Source of the DNA: Sphagnum magellanicum
Taxonomy: Eukaryota > Streptophyta > Sphagnopsida > Sphagnales > Sphagnaceae
Reading direction: 5' to 3'
Assembly (NCBI GenBank): GCA_021904315.1
Contig: CM038920.1
Location: forward strand, 18,724,001 to 18,788,000
DNA length: 64,000 bases
Notes under the pieces: model-generated
The model's database searches: none
Told to the model about the DNA's origin: nothing
What the model saw: only the letters and a program-made list of their open reading frames with translations
Shown here: positions 10,233 to 63,965 of the stretch, piece by piece
Layout of the letters: the number at the start of each line of letters is the position of its first letter
How positions within the stretch are numbered: the first letter of the stretch is position 1
Made by a program: the position numbers and the translations under genes

Positions 10233-13200
10233 TCACATTATGCAAGGCTCCCACAAGCTATCATCGTTGCTGAGAAAAGCCATACTACTATGTGATGGCT
10301 GTAAGTTCCCTCCCCAAGCATGATCTCCAAGCAACGACACCTGCATCTCATGCCGCAAATCATCGCTGTCGGGTGTGTAGTCTGGAAATGGGGAAAACAA
10401 ATTTTCTAGTGGGGAGGAGTAGCCACCACAGTGGCTGCTGCCACTGCTGCTAATGGAACTGAGTTGATCTGTGTTTGTGTACTTCAAGCTACTTAGATTT
10501 GCCATTAGGGTGTAATAAGGGTCCTGATCAGCAGGAGCAGCAGCAGCAGCAGAATCCAAGACAGTTGTTGCTGCTGCTGCTCCTCCTCTAAGAGATTCCC
10601 CACTAATACTTTTGTTGAAGTAGCCTGAATCTGAATCATTACAGTTGAACGATGCATCATTTCTATAAAGCCCTGAGCTGGATTCTGAATGCGCTAATTC
10701 AATACATGTGCTGTTGTTCCACGATGATGAGTAATTCTGCTCAGCTAAAGAACTTGCATCGGTACTGAAATCGGTGGAGCAAGTTGAAGGCATGTTGTAG
10801 TCGCTGACCATGATGCCTAAAGGGTTTGAATTAGACCTGACTGGAAGATGATGATGTGGTGGAACTTGCGTGATCTCCCTTGAGGTTGCACCGGCTACTA
10901 CCATTTGTGGTATACTGTGACCAGGTGGTACTAGACTTGCCTGTGATTTGTGATGATTCAAGTCTTTGTGCAGTCCTTTGCTTGTTGAAAGAACACTATC
11001 TGGCGAGCTTGGGTATAAGGGTGCTTGGCCCTGAGCTGCTTTCACAATATTCTCAAGAGTTGGCTCCCAGCTTGATCTTGCAGCTGCAGCAGCTTGTCCT
11101 GGATCTGGAATCAGGGAGCTGCTGCGATCAGAATCTTCCTCTGAACTGAAATTTCCAAAACTCAAGGCCTTGGATTGATTGGCTTCTGTGGAGTTGTGGG
11201 TGGCAGTCCTCATGGTGGAGTGGGTGGCCATAACTTGAGCAGTCCTCGTCATGGTGGAGAGTGGGTCCTGTTTGATTTCCTTGATCTCATGAAACTGTGG
11301 TGGACTTGTCAAACTGGAAGGACATGAATTATTTTGATGCAGGACATGGGGGGTTTCTTCTTCTGGCTCCAGAGAAGATTCATCTTTGGGGGCTTGATTG
11401 ACATGTGAAGAAGAATTCTCTTGTGCCAGAGAAGTTGTTGAAGAGGTGGAGAAGAAGGGAAAGGATGGCAGCTTGTGCTTCCCAGAGGGGTCAAGCCCCA
11501 TGCTCTTGAGCTTGCGCTTCAGATGCGTGTTCCAGTAATTCTTGATCTCATTATCTGTACGCCCAGGTATTCGACCAGCAATCAGTGACCACCTGCATTA
11601 CAACATCAACAGCCAGGGCATATGTGTTGCAATCAGTTTGCTCAAACCCCATTGCCAGGCATCATCATGAAGCTCAAGATTGTCTTATCATTCTTTGGAG
11701 TTGCAAAGGCTGGAAAAACGCAAACTAAGAAAATTTGCACAATTGATTTGCAAATTGCAGCAGGCAGCAGTACATCACTAATCATCTCACAAAGTTCACT
11801 ACTCCCACAGACAATGATACATATGTCTTCCTGATTGCACCGACGTGGTTCTCAATTCTAGCCTCAATTCTTCACTATTCTGGTTAAGAATTGTGGAGCT
11901 GCTGCACCATGACGACATTGATTTCTTCACAGAATCCTTTTTTGAGAACTTCTTTTATTCATGAACAGTGCGTTCAATTTCTATCAGAAAAACTGAAGCG
12001 GAATAATCAACACCAAGGTGGGTCGGAAGGATTATCACTTCCAAGACCGCCAGTAATGAATGCACAGATTCTTGCTTGCAGAAGCAAATTTAGGAATCTC
12101 AACCAAGAAAAAATCGGAACCGAGGAAAAGAACTGCGAGCGATGTAATCTAGAGAAAAGGAGGTCGTACCGGTTTCCTAGCAGGGAATGCAAAGTAATGA
12201 TGAGATCGTCTTCATCAGGGGAGATGTTGCCGCGCTTGAGATTGGGGCGTAGGTAATTGATCCACCGCAACCGGCAACTCTTCCCGCATCTTGCCAATCC
12301 TGCAGGAGAAAGAAAGAAAATGTTTCAATGACAAGATCAAGATCCTGCAGTTCCTACAGTAGTGCCCTGGAAACCTCGAAGGACATAAGATCAAATGTAT
12401 CTACGGAGGAAAGTCGCACACGAGCGCCTTGCAGAGCGTCTTTAGACTGAATCTGAGCATAAGATTGCAGCGACGATTGATGCGCAATTTGACATCAGTA
12501 ATATCATGGACGCGCAAATTCGAGTCACTGTAATGTTTCTTTGCAAATCCAGTACGGGATTGTTCCGGCCAAGCTTATCACGAATCAATTGTGAAGAATC
12601 TGTATCCGACGACCTGATGCTCTATCCTTTTGAAGATATGCATCGATCATGTGAGTTACTTCTGTGAACGCGAGAGGAAAACAGAAACAATCTCTCCTAA
12701 ATCGATTCTAAACGAAGAAAAAGGGAAGGACGACGCTCGACTTCTTTGGAAGAGAAAAAACGACGGAAGAAATCCTACACGAACTTGGCTCAATTGTTGT
12801 AGCTATGATTCTTCTTGATCGATCTCAGAAGTCCTCACACAGAATTTTTGACTCTCGACACCAAAGTAGAATTACGTAGAACTTCGCATATAGAGAGAGC
12901 TCTAATTTCTTCGCCTGAAAAGCGCCGCAAAGAGGAAAGAAAACACGGTAATATGTGCGCATGCTCGAAGCTCGACAAATGTGGAGTCAATCCCCGCAGA
13001 CACGCATTCTACGGAGCTCGATACAATGATCGGAATTAATCCTCACTCTCACTCAGGTTGTGAAAGTCTTTTGAAGCTTGCTAGATCTGCTGCAGCAGGC
13101 TTCTAGATCTAATGGAGCGTTGTTACCAGAATTCACGCAGGCTTCAGAAGACTAAGTCCATAGATAAATCGCAATTTCGTTTTGCGGCACCAGAATGATG

Positions 13201-48081: not shown

Positions 48082-49555
48082 CTACCTTTTCTTGCTGTCA
48101 TTGGTGCTGTCTGTGGTGTTCAACTTCTCATAGCTAAGTTGAAAGAGAATTGCAACTAAGACAAGAGAATAGAATGCTATATTTGGCCATGGGACATCCT
48201 GGGACAAGACTGCCTCCCCTAAAGTGAGAATCAACAAAACGGCCACAACCCCAGATAGAATTTGGCGGAACCGAAGAACTGCTGAGTTTTTGAGGGCCTT
48301 GGACATTAGCTCAGTCTGTTCCTTCATAAGTTCTTGCTGTTCAGGAGTCATGCTTTCTTTCACTGTGGTGAGGGGCTTACTATACAAGTCCTTGAAAAAC
48401 AAGCCTTCACTACGGGCCTTGCTCACATTTTTTTCAAACTCATCAAGGTCCCGATCGTTGGCCTCAATCTCTGCTCGTGCAGATGCCAACTCTTCCTCAA
48501 TTGCTTGTGCTTTGGCCTCCACATTCTCTAATACCTATGTCAGAAAAGAGGAGCAAGAAGAGAGAATGAATGCCAGAAAACCTGGGCCAAATAAAAGCAA
48601 GAGAACCTATGGAGTACATGGATTCCTACAAAAAGAATAATTTCCCTCAAAATATATGCCATAGCCAAGTGTGATATTGGGTGAGATCAAAATGTGCATA
48701 GCTGAAGGGTAAAGAGGAACTAAGTTTGAATTTTACCTTGGACCGAGCTTCATCCATAGTGCGCATCGCCTCTTCAGCAATTTTGTCATATTCCTCTTTT
48801 GCCTGCTCAGCTATGTCAGAGAGGAGCTTAGCACGCTCATCCACAAACTCTGTCACCTTTGCTTGGTCTGCTTGAAGTCGGACTATCCCAACAAGAATCT
48901 CTTGCACTTTCTTGTCCCCTGTATTGCTGCTATTCTCATCTGGCTCCTCCACCTACCATTTCCCAACTCCAAGAGTTTGAGCAAGAAAAAGCCATCATCT
49001 GAACATTGAAATCTTGTGAACTCAGAAACTTGAGCTGCCAATCAATGGAATTCTTGCTGGAAGAAAATCCTTGGCCAAGTTTAGATCCCATACTTTTGTT
49101 TCATGATGTAAAGCATTTCCTTTTCATCTTCAGTAATGGTGCACCATGTGATTGAAGAAAAGATAAATCCATGATGCCATATATGTTTGGAAACCATGCA
49201 AAACTCTGTGGGAATTCTTTTGTTTCTCATGTTGTAAGTGCAGAAATCACAGACCAAATGACAAAGAAGAACAACAACATACAGGAAATTTTCTCTAACA
49301 GAAGGTAAACAGAAATGGAACCTGTCCATTTGCAGTTGCATAAGCAACAACATGCGTGGATTTAGAAGAGCTGCTGGCACACCACAACAGCTTCTTCCGG
49401 CTGCTGCTCAAGAAACTCAACTGGCATTTCCTCACATCTGAAAAGACTTGCGAACAGCCTGCCCACTTTGTACACCACGACCTCCACTCAGGGTCTCCAT
49501 TTGTGGCCCACGAGAAACCTGGGCGTGAGATCACATGAAGACACAAACAGTGCAT
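48082..49555 (-). CDS. Coiled-coil protein with two C-terminal membrane segments, probably plastid-targeted, 300 aa
   Basis: Three minus-strand exons with GT-AG introns in phase 0: 49555-49322, 48952-48737 and 48534-48082. Residues 1-78 are rich in Ser, Arg, Lys and Cys with few acidic residues, typical of a transit peptide (LSFLSSSRKKLLWCASSSSK). Residues about 90-200 are a highly charged helical region (VTEFVDERAKLLSDIAEQAK, EAKAQAIEEELASARAEIEA) predicted by eye as coiled coil. A conserved-looking GLFFKDLYSKP follows. Two hydrophobic stretches at about 242-260 and 267-285 are separated by a short loop with Pro-Trp-Pro, then a hydrophilic tail ends in SKKR. A membrane-anchored structural or scaffold role in the chloroplast is inference. 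In-frame codons at 48,952 and 48,522 are GTG and internal, not starts. I do not have a name for the family. Confidence 0.85.
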
Positions 49556-57800: not shown

Positions 57801-59080
57801 TCATGTAAGTTTGTTGTGATTTAAAATGTTACTTTTGGTGTTTTATGTGGCATTGTGACTAAAACATGTTACTTTTTTTTGTCTTATGTGGCATAAGGCA
57901 TATGCTGTTTAAATGAAGTTTTTAAATAAATGTAATCATGAATTGAAAAAACATATGAAAATTTTACAATCAAAATATGATTGTGTATTTCATATGTGAA
58001 ATGAAATTAATTTCATGTCTTTATATTTCATGTAAAACCATTACTAAATCAAATGAAATTGTGAAACTATTAATTAATCAAATGAAAGTATATTATATTT
58101 GAATTTATGGCCTATATAGAAATATTTATAAAAATTATATATTTTTCCCAATAAACACATTATAGAATTAAATTAAGTGACAAAAATTCAAAAATTCAAA
58201 ATCAAAATGATTTAAATGAATTTATTTGAATTTATAACCACAATTGAGATACAAAAAGAAATTTAATATTTAAAATGATTTTTATTATGATTTTTATTTT
58301 TATTTCACATTAAAAAATTATTTGAATTACAAAATTTCATGTAGTTATGAAAATAAAAATGAATTAAATTAAATAATGAAATGAAAGAAGGTAGGTATTA
58401 CCTACTAACTATAATGCATGCACCTTTTACCTACCTACTTACCTACTTACCCACCTACCTACCTATTAATTAAACACCATTTATTAGCTACTTACATATG
58501 AAATTTAATTGTCAATATGAATTTAAATAATTGCATTATAACATCTTAACTTTCAAAATTCAAAAATATTTTTTGTTTATATGTATGTACTTACAAGATT
58601 TGTCCCCACGTGAAATGTTGATTAGAAGTTTAAAAACTTGCCATATGGTAGTGGAAGTGAAAGTTCAAATTTCCATTTAGACATTTCATGAATCTAACTA
58701 AAATTAATCATGTTAAAGTTATGATTAAAATTAGTCACATTGACATCGTAAAACAAATTTATACACACATGATGAGGGCTAACATAATCTAACTAGTTGT
58801 TGATGATTCACCTTTGTAATTTACAAAATTAAAATAATAATAATAATCCATGCATTATAATGACAAGTAAAACATTTTTAAAAAATTATAATGTTATAAT
58901 CATTTTAATGTTGCCACATAAATTAACATATTAATCAAAATGAACATGATAGATTTCAGTCTAAATAGACATGGTGGATTCCAATCACATCATGATTTAT
59001 TTATATTTGTTGTAATTGACTAGTTCTTTTTTACCAAGTCCAAATGTGTCCAATGTTTATTTTGACATAAATTTCAATAA
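54850..59080. other. Very AT-rich intergenic DNA, no gene seen
   Basis: Only short interrupted frames. The composition is strongly AT with almost no CG. It may contain the 5' LTR of the Ty3/gypsy element beginning near 59.1 kb, but no LTR partner is inside the window, so it cannot be delimited. Confidence 0.5.
58400..58472. repeat. (CTAC)n/(CTTAC)n microsatellite
   Basis: CCTAC and CTTAC units alternate for about 70 bases with interruptions. Confidence 0.6.
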
Positions 59081-59095
59081 AAAGGATGTGTTTTA

Positions 59096-59700
59096 TTGTA
59101 TGTTGATGTTGCTAGGAATTTGACAATGGTTCGATGGAAAGTTTGTAGTAGAATTGAATGCAAGGAAAAATTGTTGGTCAATTCGTATAGTTTGCTGGAT
59201 GTGTACAACATTTCCGAAAAGCTGGAACTAACTCATGCACACTATGAGGCTAATACTATGAGGCTTCCATCATGTTCAAGGCTTTAGCCTACACCAGTTT
59301 CGCCAATTAGATCATCACATTCTTTTTCAAGGACTAAAGCGGTGCATTCGGCTACACCCATCCTACCTTCTTACAACTACTGTGCCAATCTTGTCCACAA
59401 AGTTAATGAGTGCAACATTCCTTCCAAATATCTCTTTTGTGATTATTATGGGAAAGAGGGACATCATGAATTTGTCTGTTTTGTCAAGTACCCAGAACGA
59501 AAGTAACTCCGATTACAATAGTAAAATTTGCCAGCATCTTCCGTTGTCCCTTAACCAAAAGCTAAGGCACTTCAACCTTCTAACTCAGGCTTTACCCACC
59601 AAAGGTAATTCCAACAAGAATGTTAAAAAGAAGGAGCACAATGCTGACAAGAGGGAGGTGCTTCAAACCCATGCAATTCAAATTTAGATTCTACAAAATG
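59096..59700 (+). pseudogene. Gag remnant with damaged CCHC zinc knuckle
   Basis: A short frame (59,096-59,287) with gag-like helical content is followed, after a frame change, by CNIPSKYLFCDYYGKEGHHE and FVCF. The knuckle spacing C-x2-(C)-x4-H-x4-C fits, but the second Cys is Tyr. Nucleocapsid knuckles bind genomic RNA; this copy could not chelate zinc normally. Further Lys-rich sequence and several stops follow. Confidence 0.6.
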
Positions 59701-60197
59701 AACTCGAATCATTAAGGGCCCAACTTGCTAATTTAAAAGGCAAGTCCTCCCAACCAGCTAGTCATGCCCAACTTATACAAGGTTTAGGATCACGAAAGGG
59801 ACCTCTTAGGTCGTTCTATGGCCTCCCACATGATGCCATGGTTAGGGAATATGTTTTTTCCACTCCACACAATTCTAATTCACACCAGAATTTTGCTATT
59901 TATTTTTGCCCTTCCTATGTCACGGCACAAGAGGTTAATGTGGCACCCAAAGTTTCTGCCACTAGGTAGGTAATTCAGACTAATGGACTTGCATCTAGTT
60001 TAAGTCCTATTACCAGGGCTAGAAGAGCTTGAGCAGTCATGCCACAATCTTTTCGTCCTTTCAACACGGAAAAAGAACGCACCTTATTAGCAAGGGGGGA
60101 GGAAACTACTACACCATAAGCTGTTAGGGCATCAAATTTTCGTGTCCCAGGAGTACATGTAGATCAAGAAAACACATAATTTTCCACTAATCAGTTT

Positions 60198-61145
60198 ATG
60201 GAATGCCAACTTCAAATGCATGAAGTGGCACAAAAGCTTGTGAGTACACCATTGTTTAGTTTTCAAGATTTGAAGCTAAGCACCATGGACATAATTGCAA
60301 TACTAGAGGATACTCTAAACACTACATCAGGTCCTCTACCAATCCCTTATCCACATGCTACAGAGGTCCCATCCAACACCTTGGAGAAACGTTCGATTGG
60401 CTCACATGTTGCAAATGGCGTTTGTAATATAGTCACTAATTCGAGCATGGTTAAATTAGTGGGCTTTCGTACCTCTAATTCTACATTCACATATCAGAAG
60501 GGAGTTGAGAACACCTCACTTGTAGATTTGTTATTCAGCAAAGGTGTTGTGGATAGCCATTCTCTCCACAAAGTTTTTCACTCATTTCCAAAGGTGGTGC
60601 TTAGTGAGAAAACTTCCATCGCCATTAGAGTTGCCATTGTTGACAATACTGGGTCAGTAATCCAAGTGGGAGGACATACACCCAAAGTGGTACTTCTTGA
60701 TATAGGTGCCCAACCAATGATTCTTGGAGTTCAATTTGCCAAGAAGATGGGCATGCTTGACTCCAAACTACGGAAATCTATGTGGCAAATTCACACCGTT
60801 AGTGGGAGCGTAAAGGAGGTATTTGAGGAAAGTTCGGATTTGATTACACTTAACTTCAATGAAGGTACAGATCAGGAGCTTTGCTTACAGGTCAAATGTT
60901 TAGTCACCAATGCTACCAGTTATGATGTGCTCATTGGGCAAGAGGCCGTGTTTCCACCTAGTTTCACAATTAACAACCGGTTCGAACATGCGTACTATCG
61001 AGTGGATTGGGAGACTAATGGCCACCACCTGGGATATATACCCCTTGATTTACATGGGAACCATAGTCCTATGGCTCACCATTGTATGTTCAAGGAAGCA
61101 CACACCATTTCCTATATCCAACAAGCTAGCCACGAGTGGATATAG
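60198..61145 (+). pseudogene. Retroviral-type aspartic protease region (Ty3/gypsy)
   Basis: The longest intact stretch of the element, 315 codons. The active-site motif is VVLLDIGAQPMILG at about 60,690-60,725: DIGA in place of DTGA/DSGA, followed by a hydrophobic strand. About 80 residues later comes TSYDVLIGQEAV, the typical flap-to-C-terminal strand of plant Ty3 proteases. The N-terminal 150 residues are a linker from gag. The frame ends at a TAG (61,143) after HEWI; the same frame then stays open to a second TAG near 61,341, just before the methyltransferase. Confidence 0.75.
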
Positions 61146-61339
61146 GGAGATGAGGAAGAAATAGCTTACGCTCAAGCTATTGAAAGTTTAAGGGTGGTTT
61201 TTACTGACATTCAACATGGACTAGAGGTTTTACAGAGGTTCAAAGTAGCCCACAAGCCCTTGGTCAAAGCTTTGTCTAATTTTGAGAGCATGGAGAACCA
61301 TGGCGAACTGATTAAGCCATTATTTCGTCAACTAATCAC

Positions 61340-62340
61340 CTAGACACAAATTAAGGAAGGGATTACATTACTAGAGTTCTTAGTGCTATTGGTACAAGTC
61401 TCAAAGCCTTATTACAATCAGGGATGGTGGTTTGGAGGTATTTCTACGTGGACATTGATCCTATTGCAAGGCAAGTGGCGACATTAAGAATGAGGGAGTT
61501 CACAACAAGATTTCCACAACAGTTTGCAACCACCACATGGAAGGCTAGTTTCACATTTTTGCCTTTTGACATACAACTAATTCAAAAGAAACATATGGAA
61601 TTATTTGGCCCCGTCGACCTCATCATTTCAGGTTGGGAGCGTCAAGGATTTTCAGCGGTTGGATTTGAAAAAGGCTTGAATGACATAAGATCTGGTATTT
61701 TCATGGACATGATACGATTGATCACTTGGGCTCAATCCATTTCTCTTACATTTGGTTATGTAATTGAAAACACCCCTTCTCAGTTTGATCAAAAGGAGAA
61801 AATCCAGGAGCACTACACACTAGTCAAGCATTACCTTGGAGAGCCGCTCTTACTTGACGCGACATAATGTGGTTCCTATGCACACTAGTTGCGCAACTCG
61901 TGGACCAACTTGGCACCACTCTCAGTTTTACTCTCTGAAATACACTATCAGAGACCCCAACCTGTAGATTTTTCACATATTAAATGATCAAAGTTCTTGC
62001 CAACCAGTTACAAGGCAAGAGAAACCTCCTTGGTTTCCTACGAACACAATAGGAAAACCAAGAGGTGCTTAACCCACCTTTGTCTCCTTCCCAAAAGCAC
62101 ATGTTTTCAAGGAAATGGACCAGGCCTGGTGTATCGTCATGCTTCAACTACTTGGGATGAACCAAGCCCAGAAGAAAGAGAAAGGGCTATGGGGCTCCAA
62201 GCTGGCACTACTAGTCACACTAAGGTGACTAGATTGGAGTGTAACGTTATACTAGGGGGAAGCATGGACTTGAACTCCCTTACATGGTTATTGGTAACTT
62301 GTGTACTTTTTCAAATGTACACAACACCAACACTGATTCA
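61340..62340 (+). pseudogene. Cytosine-5 DNA methyltransferase domain inside the retrotransposon
   Basis: Motif I (AdoMet binding) is split by a one-base deletion: GITLLEF in the protease frame, then SAIGTSLKALLQSG in the next. An acidic YVDIDPIAR (motif II) follows. Motif IV reads DLIISGWERQGFS, where the family has PCQ; the catalytic Cys is Arg. GLNDIRSGIFMDMIRLI follows, as in C5 methyltransferases. Motif VI is YVIENTPSQ (catalytic Glu kept). Motif VIII is CGSYAH, a stop, LRNSWTNLAP. Motif X is PSPEERERAMGLQAGTTSH, then TRLECNVILGGSMDLNSL. The closing motifs resemble DNMT3/DRM more than DNMT1/CMT. Length is about 330 codons, right for a catalytic domain. Stops at 61,865 and near 61,889 fit CAA-to-TAA and Arg-codon decay. 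This copy is inactive. Confidence 0.82.
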
Positions 62341-62521
62341 ATCAACTTGCAGTTCTGGTGATGCAACCACATGGCACCCCGACCAAGTACACTTGCCTAT
62401 CTTCAACACTCTACATTTCACTCTTAGTGTTGGGGGGGAGGAGGTACCATGTAATTTGACTCAAGTGTGTCTAATACAACTGGAGGTACATTAGCTTCTA
62501 GAGAAACAATTACAACCTTCT

Positions 62522-63415
62522 ATGAATCTGCGCAATTGGATAGTGGAGAACCCAATACACCAAGTTCTTCAAACACACTTTCCAACTCCATTCCATGTGT
62601 TTCCAACTACCCTTTTGTTATGGGGAACCAGCTCATCAAGAAGGAGAAAGACCAGGTCACACTTGTTAATTAAGTATGAAAATGTATTCGCATTCTCAAT
62701 GAAAGACTTAGGTAGGTGTAAGACCATGCAGTTCTCTATAGACCTTACAAATGAGACACCCGTCTATCGAAAGAGGCATAGGTTGAGCAAACATGAGTGG
62801 GAATTGGTAAATGAAAGATGCAAAGAGCTCCATGAGGATGGTCTCATTCAACCATTAAGTTTTGATTTCGCAACTGCTACAACAATGCCAGCAAAAAAAG
62901 ATTCAACTAGATTATGGACTAAGAAAAGTATGTGTAGGGATTATAAGCCTTTGAACCTAGTTACACCTCAGGATAGGTACCCCATGCCCATCCCTGAAAA
63001 ATTGTTTGATAGCATTGGAGATTCAAACATCTTCACAATTGTGGATCTAAGGCAAGGTTTTAACCAAATTATGTTCGTTGCGAAGGATCGTAAGAAAACG
63101 ACATTCCATGGAAGCAACAAGTTATGGGAATGGCTTGTGATGCCTTTTGGATTGAAAAATGCACTTGTCTTCTTTTAGTGAGTCATTCACTAGGTTTTTG
63201 AAAGGGCATATTTCTTGAAGTGCTACATAAATGAGGTCCTAGTGCATAGCAAGGGACTCTTGCAGCATTTGGCTCATCTTGAGGAATTATTCAAGAGGCT
63301 CCACGAAGTCATTATGAAGGTCCATCCTAAAAAGTGTGAGTTTGTTGTCACCTCAATAATCTACCTTGGACATAGAATTTGCCAAATGGTATTATGGTTC
63401 ATTGGGCCAAAGTAG
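62522..63415 (+). pseudogene. Ty3/gypsy reverse transcriptase, broken
   Basis: Fingers and palm are clear: YRKRHRLSKHEWELVNE, CRDYKPLNLVTPQDRYPMP, FTIVDLRQGFNQI (first catalytic Asp kept) and WEWLVMPFGLKNA. A stop at 63,176 follows. The resumed frame has CYINEVLVHSKG, where YIDD is expected, so the catalytic Asp pair is lost. LLQHLAHLEELFKRL and HPKKCEFVVTSIIYLGHRI complete the palm. A frameshift near 63,385 leads into the connection domain. Confidence 0.88.
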
Positions 63416-63965
63416 TAGCCATTTTGGAAATGCCTAATCCTATTAATGTTCACACGTTGAGGAGCTTCATTGGATTATGTAATTACTACAGAATTTATGT
63501 CCAAGACTTTAATACTATTGCTCATCCTCTCTATGCATTGCTAAAGAAGGATGTTGCTTGGACATGGAGTGATGAGGTTCAAGAAACTTTCAACACACTC
63601 AAGGAAAAGCTTTCAGAGTTCCCCATTCTGAGAAAACCTGATTTTAACAAGGTCTTCATTTTACACACTGACTGGAGTGCTCTTGGTATTGGAGCTATTC
63701 TTGGCCAACTTGATGAAAAAGGCAAGGAATATGTTATTGCCTATGCATCCTGAAGCAACAAGGCTGAGAGCAACTACTCTTCATACGAGGGGGACTGCCT
63801 TGCTATTGTATGGGTCGTCATACATTTCAGGCCCTATCTTTATGGCACCAATTTCACTTTATATACCGACCACTAGCCTATCAAGTGGTTGATGACCAAC
63901 AATAAATTTACTAGTAAGTTAGCTCGCTAGGCACTTATATTTCAAGAGTATGAGTTCAAGGCTAT
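63379..63965 (+). pseudogene. RT connection and RNase H domain, broken
   Basis: RSFIGLCNYYRIYVQDFNTI and LYALLKKDVAWTWSDE form the connection. RNase H starts at about 63,640 (VFILHTDWSALGIGAILGQL, with Asp). After stop codons come the [19 protein letters not shown] block (catalytic Glu kept), [17 protein letters not shown], a stop, PIKWLMTNN and finally HRHGITHQNAN near the window edge. The sequence is close in style to Ty3 elements I know from seed-free plants and streptophyte algae, which is recollection rather than a search result. Confidence 0.85.

Follow-up and report, generated by a model that had tools for sequence, protein, structure and literature searches.

Introduction

The question of why a retrotransposon would carry a silencing enzyme is raised by a stretch of 64,000 nucleotides from the moss Sphagnum magellanicum (GenBank assembly GCA_021904315.1, contig CM038920.1, positions 18,724,001 to 18,788,000 of the forward strand), here called the window. 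It contains a Ty3/Gypsy element in which a C5 cytosine DNA methyltransferase (DNMT) lies between the protease (PR) and the reverse transcriptase (RT), all on the + strand (60654-63558). An original prediction, made from the letters of the window, took this element for a land-plant relic of a self-methylating lineage, either inherited from streptophyte ancestors or captured separately. We read the window copy as a poor member of a large Sphagnum family of Ty3/Gypsy elements, of which far better-kept members encode gag, PR, DNMT, RT, RNase H, integrase (IN) and a PHD finger. We propose that these elements prime their own reverse transcription and that they probably insert from circles.

Gypsy elements with a Dnmt3, DIRS-like repeats and Ka/Ks below 0.2 have been described from the charophyte Klebsormidium nitens, where the case was termed an independent acquisition and self-methylation of retrotranscribed DNA was suggested (de Mendoza et al., 2018; PMC5890265); nowhere does the text of that article use the words moss, Sphagnum or Physcomitrella. 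It also describes SymbioDIRS-Dnmt3 and SymbioLINE-Dnmt of Symbiodinium, retrotransposon-borne DNMTs of which the DIRS enzyme methylated CG de novo; like the moss element these are retrotransposons with a DNMT, but they belong to other element orders and not to Ty3/Gypsy. Ty3/Gypsy and DIRS elements that encode a methylase are mentioned for green algae and charophytes in a 2019 article (PMC6338049), which states that they do not occur in land plants such as tracheophytes; their occurrence in algae is therefore not new. A survey of 2025 reports DNMT3 in retrotransposons of streptophytes and dinoflagellates. Our literature search, which left subscription papers mostly uncovered, found no DNMT retrotransposon of a land plant. 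What is new here is the land-plant family, its PHD finger, its self-priming site, its target duplications and the circle model.

A family of Ty3/Gypsy elements with a methyltransferase inside Pol

The genome scanned comprised 438,994,042 bases in 31 contigs. A 170-amino acid piece of the DNMT gave 697 candidates, and all 150 matches that were scored were confirmed, at 71-100% identity; 22 of these have no internal stop, and open frames extend up to 2379 amino acids. With a piece of the RT there were 3229 candidates, and again 150 of 150 scored matches were confirmed. One uninterrupted frame of 2379 amino acids runs from gag with two zinc knuckles through PR, DNMT, RT, RNase H and IN to a PHD finger at its very end. 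In this frame the protease scores 30.1 bits, the first part of the DNMT 34.8, RT 102.2, RNase H 131.2, Integrase_H2C2 57.0, rve 44.7 and the PHD finger 43.7 bits, while no recombinase matched at E <= 0.01 in the copy scanned. Gag zinc knuckles, PR, RT and RNase H followed by a DDE integrase are the domains expected of Ty3/Gypsy.

All ten copies fetched whole, the window copy included, have PR, DNMT, RT, RNase H, IN and PHD, and a DNMT lies upstream of seven of eight RT matches fetched from outside the list of the top 150 DNMT matches. The eighth (L036, G000:C2:89200-91700) is a family RT copy without an upstream DNMT, being either a deletion or a DNMT-free relative. The broken window copy, taken alone, allowed the reading that a fragment of a host DNMT gene had landed later in one Ty3 copy; this nested insertion is refuted by the common position of the DNMT and by its lying in one frame with gag, PR, RT and IN, and we give it virtually no chance. 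Thus the window copy is not alone in having a DNMT between PR and RT, and the prediction that a land plant has a Ty3/Gypsy element whose Pol stably includes a DNMT is supported. The anatomy of the family we regard as near certain.

Pooled Nei-Gojobori estimates from up to 12 young copies gave dN/dS of 0.32 for the N-terminal part of the DNMT (55 pairs) and 0.22 for its C-terminal part (66 pairs). Elsewhere the values were 0.30 for RT, 0.33 for RNase H, 0.16 for IN, 0.09 for PHD, 0.44 for PR, 0.12 for the PR-DNMT spacer, 0.40 for the DNMT-RT linker and 0.20 for the first gag block (28 pairs). These values indicate that the DNMT is under purifying selection and is preserved about as well as RT, with the drawback that the pairs share history and are not independent, the values being estimates and not tests.

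The methyltransferase domain

Four better-kept genomic copies match PF00145 at 38.6-39.2 bits and the DNMT domain of one of them, modelled by AlphaFold with 24 diverse relatives, reaches a pLDDT of 92.2 and a pTM of 0.91, so that the match is not due to chance; with 13 near relatives pLDDT was only 32.5, and the model used is that from the run with the 24 diverse rows. In the alignments the family has what we take to be motifs I, IV, VI, VIII, IX and X in normal, unpermuted order. Motif IV reads W-E-C-Q, its Cys being invariant in 18 rows (the alignments of relatives exclude L003 and L008).

When the model was compared with the Protein Data Bank (PDB) by Foldseek, 217 matches were obtained at E <= 0.001, and all of the 50 listed are DNMT3A, 3B or 3C entries, some with 3L. 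The first match, DNMT3A, has a TM score of 0.84 by target and 0.69 by query at 21% identity, and among viral predicted structures a phage methylase matches best, with a TM score of 0.59 by query. A family profile ranks DNMT3 (E 1e-5) over DRM (1.5e-4) and HhaI (0.01). The predicted fold is thus of DNMT3 type, and descent from DNMT3 proper is likely. It is not proven, because two phage methylase families also match, at 60.2 and 47.8 bits. In the moss DNMT the residue before the catalytic Cys is Glu, where Pro is usual, a difference that could alter activity. The Pro-Cys of the DNMT3 family is absent from the moss family, and Glu in this position is odd for a C5 methyltransferase. Among 65 element DNMTs, 39 have Glu-Cys, 24 Pro-Cys and one Ala-Cys, and in one the residue was not found.

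Insertion ends and split repeats

The inserted unit starts with TGTCATGC (TGTC) in all nine well-kept copies that were delimited, and ends with GACA in eight and AACA in one. Each is flanked by a 4-bp target duplication, read by eye (TAGG, AACT, CAGC, CAAT, GTTC, CTCT, TGAC, GGAG and GGTT). A short target duplication and TG...CA ends are as expected of Ty3/Gypsy; identical full long terminal repeats (LTRs) at both ends are not found. The copies instead have split direct repeats, A and B, on either side of the internal region (int), arranged as A1-int-B1-A2-B2 in five of the nine (the long form) and as A-int-B in four (the short form).

The junction of the polypurine tract with B occurs at 198 places in the genome at up to 2 mismatches, and its reversed pattern at none. 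Twenty further 3' ends, picked for an exact junction of this kind, comprise 11 of the form B-A-B, one B-A-B-A-B, seven that end after one complete B and one that is broken inside B. The extra A-B unit of the B-A-B-A-B copy (L129, G000:C4:3308043-3309368), in which an A|B join is 3 nt short, has a multimer circle and unequal exchange as candidate explanations.

In the five long copies the A1/A2 and B1/B2 pairs differ by 25 substitutions in 2434 aligned positions, and one copy has none; the family has therefore moved recently. Moreover, the repeats differ less within a copy than between copies (2.6 against 9.2 for A and 2.4 against 6.8 for B), so that both are renewed in each cycle.

Proposed self-priming and a probable route through circles

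The polypurine tract GGTCTGGGGGGGG lies directly before B1. At the other end, the 12 nt right after A are the reverse complement of positions 181-192 of A, exactly in six of the nine copies, with one mismatch in two and with two mismatches in one; of 20000 letter shuffles, compared with the A of one copy, two match equally well. A TATA-like box stands about 32 nt before position 181 of A in all nine. The element thus has both a priming site after its 5' repeat and a polypurine tract before its 3' repeat, as Ty3/Gypsy elements do. By the standard rules of reverse transcription, these landmarks imply that the LTR is B.A, with U3 formed by B and positions 1-180 of A, and R-U5 by A from position 181.

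Transcription would then start at position 181 of repeat A, some 32 nt after the TATA-like box, and the first 12 nt of the RNA would pair with the 12 nt just past A and prime the minus strand, in the manner of Tf1. The G-rich polypurine tract before B would prime the plus strand, and the product would be a linear DNA with B.A at both ends, starting ATACATG and ending TTTCAAT. In self-priming Ty3 elements of the Tf1/sushi type the 5' end of the RNA is likewise complementary to a site just after the 5' repeat. To our knowledge these elements insert as ordinary LTR-int-LTR and carry no DNMT. The sequence landmarks of the moss element are compatible with this kind of priming; it differs in its insertion layout and in its DNMT.

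The inserted copies do not end at the predicted ends of this complementary DNA (cDNA); they end inside the predicted U3, where B and A would meet in the palindrome GACA-GC-TGTC. Long forms have the predicted cDNA ends joined to one another, as ATTTCAAT|ATACATGAG, at the A2|B2 junction of all five of the first copies, and among 12 other long copies this join is complete in eight (some with small letter differences) and 2-3 nt short in four. We suggest that the ends of the linear cDNA are joined to form a circle, which the DDE integrase would open at GACA-GC-TGTC inside U3 and then insert; if so, an inserted copy is circularly permuted with respect to the reverse transcript. Exactly A-int-B-A-B would result from the cutting of a two-LTR circle at a single B|A palindrome, and A-int-B from a one-LTR circle or from later recombination of B1 with B2. 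The integrases of foamy virus and HIV-1 have been reported to cut palindromic two-LTR circle junctions (PMC1180852, PMC1905944). As proposed for the moss element, a DDE integrase there cuts a palindrome in circular cDNA; in those viruses, however, the palindrome is the LTR-LTR junction itself, whereas in the moss the integrase would cut within U3, leaving the circle junction in the insertion.

Insertion from an end-joined LTR circle opened inside U3 is the simplest reading of these junctions and a probable one, and the self-priming and the LTR limits are inferred along with it. Some observations fit it less well. The standard GACA or AACA end is kept in 17 of the 20 further copies and not in L118, L126 and L132, and the short form is explained equally well by recombination of B1 with B2. 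It is also possible that A2 and B2 were copied from RNA: a transcript of a long-form parent would run through A2 into B2, template switching would renew the ends, and no circle would be needed. Long forms are indeed common (16 of 29 3' ends). The short A|B joins, in which the 2-3 nt are missing exactly at the join, are as expected of end joining and argue against RNA copying, although three of the four such copies are older ones; and because B1 and B2 resemble each other more within a copy than across copies, B2 is remade in each cycle. We consider RNA copying unlikely. A split direct repeat is a layout known from DIRS/Ngaro/PAT elements, which have a tyrosine recombinase and no target duplication, and A-int-B-A-B is such a layout, so that the moss family could be a member of that group which merely resembles Ty3. 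The published account of the K. nitens element speaks of its repeats in the same way (PMC5890265). Membership is refuted by the Integrase_H2C2 and rve matches and the lack of a recombinase match in the copy scanned; together with the 4-bp duplications in nine of nine copies, and a polypurine tract and self-priming site at the exact borders of the repeats, this makes it highly improbable.

Relatives and origin

A first protein search with the 170-amino acid piece found 478 matching proteins. When the search was limited to long proteins, 64 with a DNMT were obtained, three of them moss-like (83-97% identical) and the rest only 29-46% identical. Those named by organism are Closterium NIES-53, -54 and -68, Haematococcus lacustris, Chromochloris zofingiensis (identified by its EukProt label), Monoraphidium neglectum and one labelled as a bacterial metagenome-assembled genome. 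By the place of the DNMT, 23 of the 64 are of type 1 (after PR or before RT) and 31 of type 2 (after RT or RNase H); nine have only a DNMT before the integrase, and one is unclear. Type 1 is the layout of the window and includes Closterium, and type 2 includes the named chlorophytes; in Haematococcus the DNMT lies between RNase H and IN. Thus the green-algal polyproteins resemble the moss element in a DNMT of the same subtype and, for most that reach the integrase, a PHD finger after it (29 of 34, the others being P0146, P0149, P0153, P0162 and P0179), but in the named chlorophytes the DNMT follows RT or RNase H, whereas in the moss and Closterium it stands between PR and RT.

Comparison with the K. 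nitens element was by published description and not by sequence, no sequence of that name being among the 64 proteins. The two are alike in their Gypsy domains, in an intronless Dnmt3-type DNMT inside Pol and in purifying selection on it, and also in DIRS-like repeats, with which the split direct repeats of the moss were compared from the description. The K. nitens element differs in its charophyte host and is described as having fewer copies than Symbiodinium; the available description is silent on a PHD finger, a target duplication, a priming site and a model of integration.

More distant relatives were sought in phages and prokaryotes. The window piece had 7 pattern matches in IMG/VR and 64 in GTDB genomes, and alignment A4 had 20 in GTDB, with no confirmed relative among them. 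A broad alignment found 261 confirmed distant methylases in IMG/VR, of which 80 were kept (25-47% identical in the best segment), and phage records gave 114 matches, with 23.7-29.2% identity among the ten listed.

The original prediction left open whether the DNMT was inherited or captured separately, and proposed that trees of DNMT and RT be compared. In the DNMT tree of 65 rows, made without outgroups, type 1 splits from the rest (SH-aLRT 94), and the RT tree of 26 rows has the same split (SH-aLRT 95, with only three type-1 rows); all trees were made without close non-transposon DNMTs. DNMT and RT distances correlate, with r 0.69 over the 26 rows and r 0.53 over the 23 type-2 rows, and 0 of 5000 permutations were as high in each; the element DNMTs also have the motifs GW(E/P)CQ and AHRLR..WTN in common. 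One old association with a DNMT, followed by one move of the DNMT inside Pol, is the simplest reading of these data, and a lineage common to green algae is favoured over capture of a DNMT by the moss lineage independently of the algal elements. For such a separate capture speak the different places of the DNMT (it precedes RT in the moss and in Closterium, and in the chlorophyte type it stands between RNase H and IN), the low identity of all but the three moss-like proteins, and the PHD finger, which is found in the moss and the chlorophyte type but not in P0179. As P0179 is the only type-1 protein among the 34, the presence of a PHD finger in type 1 rests on the moss. Moreover, the simple split of types is lost when four viral outgroups (length-filtered IMG/VR proteins) are added to the DNMT tree: type 1 is then not one group, and the moss rows stand beside type 2 (SH-aLRT 81). 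The long-branch P0179, kept in the 65-row DNMT tree and the RT tree, was excluded there, and because the outgroup branches are 2.7 and more we do not rely on the root. Two captures of similar DNMTs are possible, but we would not expect it. Somewhat less doubtful, though still not favoured, is the reading that Sphagnum received the element horizontally, from an alga of fresh water or bogs, and did not inherit it from streptophyte ancestors. Sphagnum shares its habitat with desmids, and none of the seven organism-named proteins is from a land plant. The DNMT of the moss is, however, not especially close to those of Closterium in the 65-row tree, and a search confined to long proteins of suitable length would not pick up decayed copies in other plants.

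The window copy and its surroundings

Domain borders in the window were mapped by blastn with the domains of one better-kept genomic copy, to which the parts of the relic are 87.0-93.9% identical; all lie on the + strand. The relic is longer than the 60198..63965 first proposed for it, since a gag remnant begins at 59183 and the copy extends to about G000:C14:18,790,315. The remnant (59183..60653, 88.7-93.3% identity) consists of the end of the first gag block (59183-59227), two zinc knuckles (59318-59512) and the C-terminal part of gag with the spacer to PR (59513-60653). The 5' half of gag, the 5' untranslated region and repeat A1, which was probed with A, are missing or unrecognisable. A retropepsin-type aspartic protease (LLDIGAQPMILG) follows at 60654..60968 (91.1% identity); its gag-asp_proteas match of 18.1 bits is below the cut-off of 28.2, against 30.1 bits in the better-kept copy. 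Next come the PR-DNMT spacer (60969..61355, 87.0%) and the DNMT, with motifs I to X and the target-recognition region, at 61356..62377 (90-91% over the whole domain).

The longest methyltransferase piece, the open reading frame (ORF) 61355-61867, matches PF00145 DNA_methylase at 25.9 bits (cut-off 22), in agreement with the predicted DNMT between PR and RT on one strand. The translations change frame near motif I and again after motif VIII and meet several in-register stops in the second half, so that the reading frames had rightly been joined across lesions. The glutamate of ENT at 61766..61768, placed by alignment with relatives, we take to be that of motif VI. At the catalytic position of motif IV (61640..61642) there is an Arg codon (GWERQGF), where 18 of 18 aligned relatives have Cys, and because this Cys is lost we judge the window copy to be dead. 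The word relic is thus apt for this copy but not for the family.

Downstream lie the DNMT-RT linker (62382..62869, 93.5% identity), RT (62870..63558, 91.2%, with VDLRQGF from 63041) and RNase H (63559..63960, 91.9%; RT_RNaseH_2 65.3 bits). For RVT_1, which has a cut-off of 29.6 bits, ORF 63194-63415 scores 34.8 bits and ORF 62495-63178 falls short at 28.2 bits. The integrase, the PHD finger and the repeats B1-A2-B2 lie beyond the window (locus L010), and A2 of this old copy retains the TATA-like box and the priming-site 12-mer.

A direct repeat of 600 bp, 73% identical, is found on both sides of the relic (window 57881-58476 and G000:C14:18790326-18790940, that is L010 4326-4940). It was rejected as the LTR of the relic, because it belongs to a different repeat family, which has copies elsewhere too, among them a pair on C2 some 27 kb apart. 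The relic may lie nested within that family, or may have lost its 5' end beside it. Elsewhere in the window, an exon of an R2R3-MYB gene lies at 10233-11597 (- strand), with a tail of more than 400 amino acids. Its best named matches come from Sphagnum jensenii, at 99% over 20% of the query, and from S. troendelagicum, at 100% over 20%, and the top two matches overall are 92-94% identical over 93% of the query. A phage-integrase SAM-like domain is weakly matched at 48082-48534 (- strand), with 20.6 bits against a cut-off of 27.5, and may mark the remnant of a tyrosine-recombinase element.

Possible role of the methyltransferase and implications

The best available guess for the role of the DNMT is self-methylation. 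The enzyme would methylate newly made circular cDNA, either ahead of insertion or in the course of it, and new copies would thereby arrive in the genome with the methylated state of the host; the PHD finger would help to choose chromatin. Both suggestions are speculative. Against the first, host silencing alone could methylate the copies. CpG depletion is 0.33 in the relic and 0.33 in the rest of the window, and is weaker in young copies; it fails to separate self-methylation from methylation by the host.

We have moderate confidence in the explanation as a whole, in which a dead copy represents a gag-PR-DNMT-RT-RNase H-IN-PHD family with self-priming, insertion from circles and a role for its DNMT. 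More tentative, and short of an even chance in our judgement, is the wider idea of an old Ty3 family of the green lineage, from chlorophytes to moss, with DNMT and PHD, that routinely integrates from circles opened in U3 and methylates the circle before insertion.

Whether circles serve as a substrate of integrase is an argued point in retrovirology (PMC1180852). If the circle reading is true, the moss family would be a natural case of a retroviral-type integrase for which circles are the normal substrate. With at least 150 scored copies, one of them without any substitution between its repeat pairs, this moss corrects the stated absence of such elements from land plants overall, and makes Sphagnum a land plant in which to ask why a retrotransposon carries a silencing enzyme.

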